In this document: positions 74 through 17,041 of the stretch, piece after piece
Numbering within the stretch: the first letter of the stretch is position 1
How the letters are laid out: the number at the start of each line of letters is the position of its first letter
The notes under the pieces: model-generated
Database searches by the model: none
Seen by the model: the letters and a program-made list of their open reading frames with translations, nothing else
What the model was told of the DNA's origin: nothing
From: Ianthella basta
Taxonomy: Eukaryota; Porifera; Demospongiae; Verongiida; Ianthellidae
NCBI GenBank assembly: GCA_964019415.1
Contig: OZ025889.1
Coordinates: forward strand, 5,890,160 to 5,954,159
DNA: 64,000 nt
Direction of reading: 5' to 3'
Position numbers and translations under genes: made by a program

Positions 74-17041
<16,968 letters not shown>

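Follow-up and report, generated by a model that had tools for sequence, protein, structure and literature searches.

A USP9X paralogue with glycine at the catalytic cysteine position lies beside an intact copy in the sponge Ianthella basta

Introduction

Has a sponge lost the catalytic nucleophile of its USP9X, or does the altered codon belong to a gene other than the working enzyme? The question is raised by a 64,000-nucleotide stretch of Ianthella basta DNA (C22:5890160-5954159, free of N and here called the window; positions given without a contig are those of the window). A first-pass annotation of the window described its USP9X gene as an orthologue in which the catalytic Cys is replaced by Gly and only the nucleophile is gone, and offered a pseudo-deubiquitinase or a decaying paralogue as the explanation. 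Here, we report the structure of this gene, its relationship to a second USP9X copy on the same contig, and the pattern of substitutions that separates the two.

Results

The codon at 9000-9002 reads GGC (Gly) in the assembly. It is located in an exon at 8902-9026 of the plus strand that is flanked by ag and gt and whose first codon is split. When this exon was joined with its neighbours, the resulting 406 aa sequence matched PF00443 along profile positions 1-254 of 254 (E 1.2e-49). The top match among solved structures was human USP9X 7yxx (E 6.2e-125), with 5wch as a further USP9X structure match (E 1.7e-124), and the similarity continues along the long non-catalytic parts, as expected of a USP9X/FAF member. 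The Gly aligns with the catalytic Cys of 7yxx (human C1566), the residue altered in C1566S, which is described as a catalytically inactive mutant of human USP9X (PMC5380967). Given this alignment and the identity of the mutated human residue, the reported Cys-to-Gly change is confirmed at the level of the assembly.

The gene in the window, hereafter copy B, is not the genome's only USP9X, as the first-pass annotation had taken it to be. A protein search of the 209 Mb genome (96 contigs) matched a second gene, copy A, at C22:5866384-5866805 on the minus strand. Copy A is thus on the same contig as the window, to the left of it and on the strand opposite to copy B, and the Cys codons of the two copies are about 32 kb apart. 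The matching codon of copy A is TGC, so that the second USP9X that had been suggested as a target for a genome search does exist. With human USP9X as a guide, copy A was modelled as 48 exons encoding 2469 residues without a stop or frameshift, four tiny pieces beyond exon 48 having been dropped as spurious; 1088 of 2441 aligned residues are identical to the human protein. The guide sequence agrees with 7yxx in three stretches (863 of 863, 365 of 365 and 559 of 560 residues). Because copy A has TGC at this position, the term paralogue is the right one for copy B, and the enzyme has not been lost from the genome; a conserved enzyme deprived of its nucleophile is not the case here. Judged from its residues, copy A has retained a complete active site and is presumably the source of the enzyme.

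The protein search gave five matches in the genome, two in copy A, two in copy B and one on C19, and no third USP9X copy. Nor was a third copy found with a 3.6 kb DNA query, for which 40 of 1169 candidates were scored, or with the 47-base Cys-box pattern described below. Besides A and B, most of the listed matches to this query fall at 11183-11732, and a few at 12023-12360. The former is a repeat-rich intron of the catalytic domain, composed of GT/CA runs and a short tandem repeat, which matches many places in the genome. The C19 match (C19:6445435-6445521) is another USP exon; its Cys is present and it reads GLRNAGATCYMNS. It possibly belongs to a USP24-like gene. There are 49 PF00443 matches in the genome, and inspection of the Cys position covered copy A, copy B and the C19 exon. 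We also considered that the Cys box of copy B was acquired by ectopic conversion from another gene. This candidate was rejected, as a genome-wide search with a 47-base Cys-box pattern and at most three mismatches matched the window copy alone (copy A, with five differences, exceeds the limit).

Copy A (C22:5860148-5877668, minus) and copy B (C22:5884184-5907182, plus) are arranged head to head as the two arms of an inverted repeat. Identity in the aligned blocks is 84-97%, except in a 319-base block (82%) and a 190-base block (76%). The part of copy B within the window (71-17041, plus) was modelled by spliced alignment to the copy A protein as 36 exons that run to a stop codon at 17039-17041 and match those of copy A one for one. 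Of its 35 introns, 34 are GT-AG, and the GC-AG intron after 6199 reflects an over-extended exon end. The 5′ exons continue to the left of the window, where 5000 bases read N and cover the expected exons 3-12.

Both ends of copy B are lost. Homology starts inside exon 1, leaving the ATG and first 77 codons of copy A without a counterpart, and a CA repeat that terminates immediately ahead of this 5′ breakpoint has a new in-frame ATG (MHTQ|PDFPVDV) at its end. At the other end, homology is broken off inside the last exon (16928-17041, plus) after SEDDTHD; copy B then reads CILRI and a stop, and copy A goes on for 53 codons. An extra partial copy of the penultimate exon just beyond the end of copy B (17177-17295, plus) makes this a complex breakpoint. 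Copy A contains a 200-N gap (C22:5862460-5862659) whose flanks share an overlap of about 38 bases containing a single mismatch. The gap is therefore probably not genuine, and it indicates that the assembly had trouble here.

Several other features of the region were recorded. The spacer between the two arms contains an unbroken kinase-like frame (C22:5880575-5881525, GKGSYGEVVEV..., motifs identified by eye). Beyond the end of copy B, a retroelement on the minus strand (23827-27791) consists of a 1048 aa frame that matches reverse transcriptase, RNase H and integrase, and an adjoining 288 aa frame; we take it to be Ty3/gypsy-like. Two overlapping kinase-like frames, INRGAWGVVYAG... and MVHRDLNDKNVL..., again recognized by eye from their motifs, are located at 55160-56090 (plus), and an open frame at 58844-59809 (plus) reads VIRSFPKSSTGGLDGLRPQHLKDML, which to us looks like the reverse transcriptase of a non-LTR retroelement.

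The reading frame of copy B is interrupted. The exon at 4637-4729 (plus) has one extra base relative to copy A, a G at about 4679-4680 that is outside any long homopolymer, and translation in the upstream frame stops at 4688-4690. The open frame that a functional pseudo-deubiquitinase would need is therefore broken in the assembly, and copy B has the disabling lesion and the lost start and end that characterize an unprocessed pseudogene. No second frameshift was detected in the copy A model or in the remainder of the visible copy B model, no stop codon is present in the copy B model apart from that caused by the frameshift, and no frame-restoring splice site was seen by eye in the A/B alignment. 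The other length differences noted in copy B are an in-frame 6-base insertion and two codons without a counterpart, the latter in the exon adjoining the gap of copy A.

The QQD-like box, the zinc-ribbon cysteines and the His box had been called intact, and the residues bear this out for the first two and for the catalytic His itself. The exon at 9724-9897 (plus) keeps the EQHDAFEFF box and the first zinc-ribbon pair (CKDC), the exon at 10223-10364 (plus) keeps the second pair (CEKC), and the catalytic His (1879 in human numbering) and the third catalytic residue (Asp 1901) are retained. The view that only the nucleophile is gone proved too narrow, not only on account of the frameshift and lost ends. 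In the catalytic domain, copy B departs from residues shared by copy A and human USP9X at C1566G, W1804V, E1805V, R1806K, A1809V, D1814G, E1851D, A1875D, S1876N, G1877D, D1902N and I1966T. The largest cluster, with 12 coding differences, extends across an intron at 10544-10641 (plus) and turns WER into VVK at 1804-1806 in addition to changing 1809 and 1814. The second largest, with 9 differences, is in the His box (10886-10930, plus), where ASG at 1875-1877 becomes DND. Copy B has also gained a Cys (TGT, 8982-8984, plus) six residues ahead of the nucleophile position, where copy A has Arg (CGG) and human USP9X has Lys 1560. We know of no USP that uses the position six residues before the catalytic Cys.

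At 11808-11813 (plus), Asp 1901 is followed by Asn in place of Asp 1902, so that the fourth critical residue, as positioned by our own alignment, is absent. According to PMC10867860, more than 96% of human USPs have Asp immediately following the canonical third catalytic residue, and four of five USPs tested rely on it, USP7 leaning more on the third residue. Because USP9X is outside those five and 1902 was placed by our own alignment, we conclude that D1902N is probably, rather than certainly, the loss of a second catalytic residue. The loss of the nucleophile from the encoded protein is certain, and from its residues copy B should not work as a cysteine deubiquitinase.

The substitutions between A and B were examined in 1733 codon pairs, after 30 of 1763 pairs in three uncertain places had been dropped; these 30 include 10 of the 57 codons that differ in the encoded amino acid. 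The dS value is 0.095 and dN is 0.0126, a ratio of 0.133; the ratio is 0.121 in the catalytic part (copy A residues 1543-1960, human 1550-1973) and 0.137 elsewhere. It is 0.112 before the frameshift and 0.204, 0.121 and 0.055 in three successive parts after it. The 33 shared introns differ at 166 of 2449 aligned positions (6.8%), and their spectrum predicts 2.51 amino-acid changes per silent one. For a copy B that was neutral since the duplication, the expectation is about 130 amino-acid and 6 nonsense changes; the observed numbers are at most 50.5 for the former and 0 for the latter, an outcome reached in 0 of 156,632 simulations. The calculation assumes that silent changes accumulated at the same rate in the two copies and that no older polymorphism is involved. 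The neutral pattern of an unprocessed pseudogene is absent from copy B, which, on the evidence of these substitutions, did not evolve like a dead gene. Neutrality confined to about the last 30% of its history would also account for the number of amino-acid changes, although it predicts 1.8 nonsense changes as against the observed 0. Conversion or polymorphism could mimic the low dN/dS on the scaffold of copy B.

Of the conserved sites, at which copy A and human USP9X agree, copy B has changed 12 of 251 within the catalytic part and 3 of 476 outside it, compared with neutral expectations of 26.7 and 30.9, respectively. The Fisher p of 3.6e-4 for this difference is too kind, because the limits of the catalytic part were drawn after the list of changes was known and the 12 catalytic changes are clustered and not independent (five at 1804-1814, three at 1875-1877).

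Seven clusters of at least four differences in 24 coding bases were seen, whereas permutation predicts 3.2 (95th percentile 6). The Cys-box cluster, with 5 differences, is no bigger than two others of 6 at 1468-1476 and 1966-1978. The three active-site clusters contain 17 amino-acid and 9 silent differences and the four others 7 and 13; the amino-acid excess is suggestive, the comparison being non-significant (p 0.073). The 42 codons at motifs picked on the basis of USP signatures contain 6 amino-acid and 5 silent-only changes, and the other 376 catalytic codons have 9 and 27. Proximity to exon edges may contribute to the clusters, since the rate of difference is higher within 45 bases of an edge: 48 of 919 bases differ there and 5 of 335 farther in for the catalytic part, the corresponding values outside it being 59 of 2076 and 42 of 1869. 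Between A and B, no stretch can be aligned in the intron that follows the Cys box or in the one at 1806, and the intron after the His box aligns only in part, with differences at 36 of 236 positions. Two introns away from the active site are equally unalignable, and two more nearly so. Such divergent islands would be expected if old stretches had escaped gene conversion and were kept distinct by selection or, alternatively, by intron indels.

Discussion

We favor the view that copy B is an inactivated paralogue that was for most of its history a constrained, non-catalytic USP9X, in other words a pseudo-deubiquitinase, and that it is now broken as assembled. We give this reading a probability of roughly one half. 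One component of it, namely that copy B is an inactivated duplicate adjoining an intact copy, is well supported by the two sequences. Use of the scaffold for most of the life of copy B is our preferred reading of the substitution pattern. In view of the frameshift and the missing ends, we consider it less likely that copy B is still alive. Of the two explanations first offered for the altered codon, the decaying paralogue is upheld, both as a paralogue and, by the frameshift and missing ends, as decaying; the substitution pattern speaks for a pseudo-deubiquitinase role in the past, and such a role is less likely at present.

One can envision the following course of events. A head-to-head inverted duplication gave rise to copy B, which retains almost the entire protein apart from the first 77 and last 53 codons. 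Copy B has lost the nucleophile, probably the second catalytic Asp, and other conserved residues beside the active site, and for most of its history it was most likely made as a non-catalytic USP9X. Such a protein could bind partners or substrates and thereby compete with copy A or shield its targets, acting as a scaffold or decoy. The frameshift would have been acquired afterwards, leaving a dying gene. Two points run counter to this course. The frameshift and the absent start and end argue that copy B yields no full protein today, and overwriting by A alleles in a very variable species could leave mostly silent differences even if copy B was not used.

The second point leads to the main rival, that copy B was dead on arrival, a truncated segmental pseudogene that was never translated. 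Gene conversion, with copy A or divergent A alleles as donor, would keep most of it young and its differences mostly silent, and the islands would be old unconverted stretches that happen to cover active-site codons. The loss of both ends and the frameshift are in keeping with this, as is the patchy identity (blocks of 76-97%, with 4 of 33 shared introns unalignable and the others about 93% identical), which is what conversion blocked by indels would give; moreover, the 17 to 9 ratio in the active-site clusters is not far from the neutral 2.5. Conversion alone, however, leaves the ratio of amino-acid to silent changes unlowered. Outside the catalytic part only 3 of 476 conserved sites changed where 30.9 were expected, and 12 of the 15 changes lie inside it (p 4e-4 if they were independent). 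We consider this explanation rather unlikely.

Alternatively, copy B might be a living pseudo-deubiquitinase with a new promoter and a new in-frame ATG, its frameshift being due to an error in the assembly, confined to a rare allele or bypassed by splicing. The ATG (MHTQ) just ahead of the 5′ breakpoint would serve, the remainder of the visible gene is open with usable splice sites, and constraint is evident on both sides of the frameshift. Nevertheless, no long homopolymer surrounds the extra base, the frameshift is the only one in either model, the alignment offered no splice site by eye that would restore the frame, and the stretch expected to hold exons 3-12 reads N. This alternative is unlikely in our judgment. 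A more specific version, a living dominant-negative USP9X that uses the new start codon, with a scaffold that is selected and homogenised by conversion and active-site islands that selection holds apart, appears to us decidedly unlikely.

It is very improbable that the arrangement is an assembly artefact, whether from two haplotypes of one gene having been placed next to each other or from reads wrongly joined into a mosaic. The 200-N gap with overlapping flanks in copy A and the 5000 N to the left of the window could be taken to suggest it, but besides those 5 kb there is no N between copy A's side of the gap and copy B. The homology breaks abruptly inside exon 1 and the last exon, which is not expected of alleles, and blocks that diverge by 3-24%, together with the large intron differences, are too distant for a hairpin read error. 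Finally, takeover of catalysis by the new Cys is hardly credible. The loop that held the lost Cys also contains the new one, and there are claims of non-canonical cysteines in USP52 and USP39 (PMC10919355), but the neighbours of the catalytic His have changed as well, and so has the adjacent Asp 1902.

How does copy B compare with known systems? Through copy A it resembles human USP9X/FAF-X (7yxx, 5wch) exon for exon as a long protein, and it has the EQHD box, the zinc cysteines, the His and the first Asp; it differs in the Cys to Gly replacement, D1902N, the changes at 1804-1814 and 1875-1877, the lost ends and the frameshift. The pseudo-deubiquitinases USP39/Sad1 and USP52/PAN2 likewise have a USP fold without the canonical catalytic Cys, but these are established genes with known roles, whereas copy B is a frameshifted local duplicate near an intact copy. 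The inactivity of USP39 and USP52 is itself treated as disputed in PMC10919355 and PMC5876348. Like an unprocessed (segmental) pseudogene, copy B keeps its introns, is cut at both ends, has a frameshift and is located near an intact copy; unlike one, its substitutions are mostly silent and the conserved sites of its scaffold are nearly unchanged. The patchy identity with short, very different islands recalls the GOT1 paralogues described as being under gene conversion (PMC3728101), with the difference that the two largest coding clusters between A and B are at active-site loops, selection being unproven as their cause. Among the literature matches listed for USP9X, pseudoDUB/pseudoenzyme and gene duplication, no title concerns a dead USP9X duplicate.

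The surprising proposal that this sponge has lost a conserved enzyme is removed, as the genome keeps an active-looking USP9X. Copy B is ordinary in kind, a dead paralogue, and its evolutionary footprint is unusual. A catalytically dead twin of a large deubiquitinase near the intact copy is a rare natural experiment, and if copy B is or was expressed, it would allow one to ask what USP9X does without catalysis.
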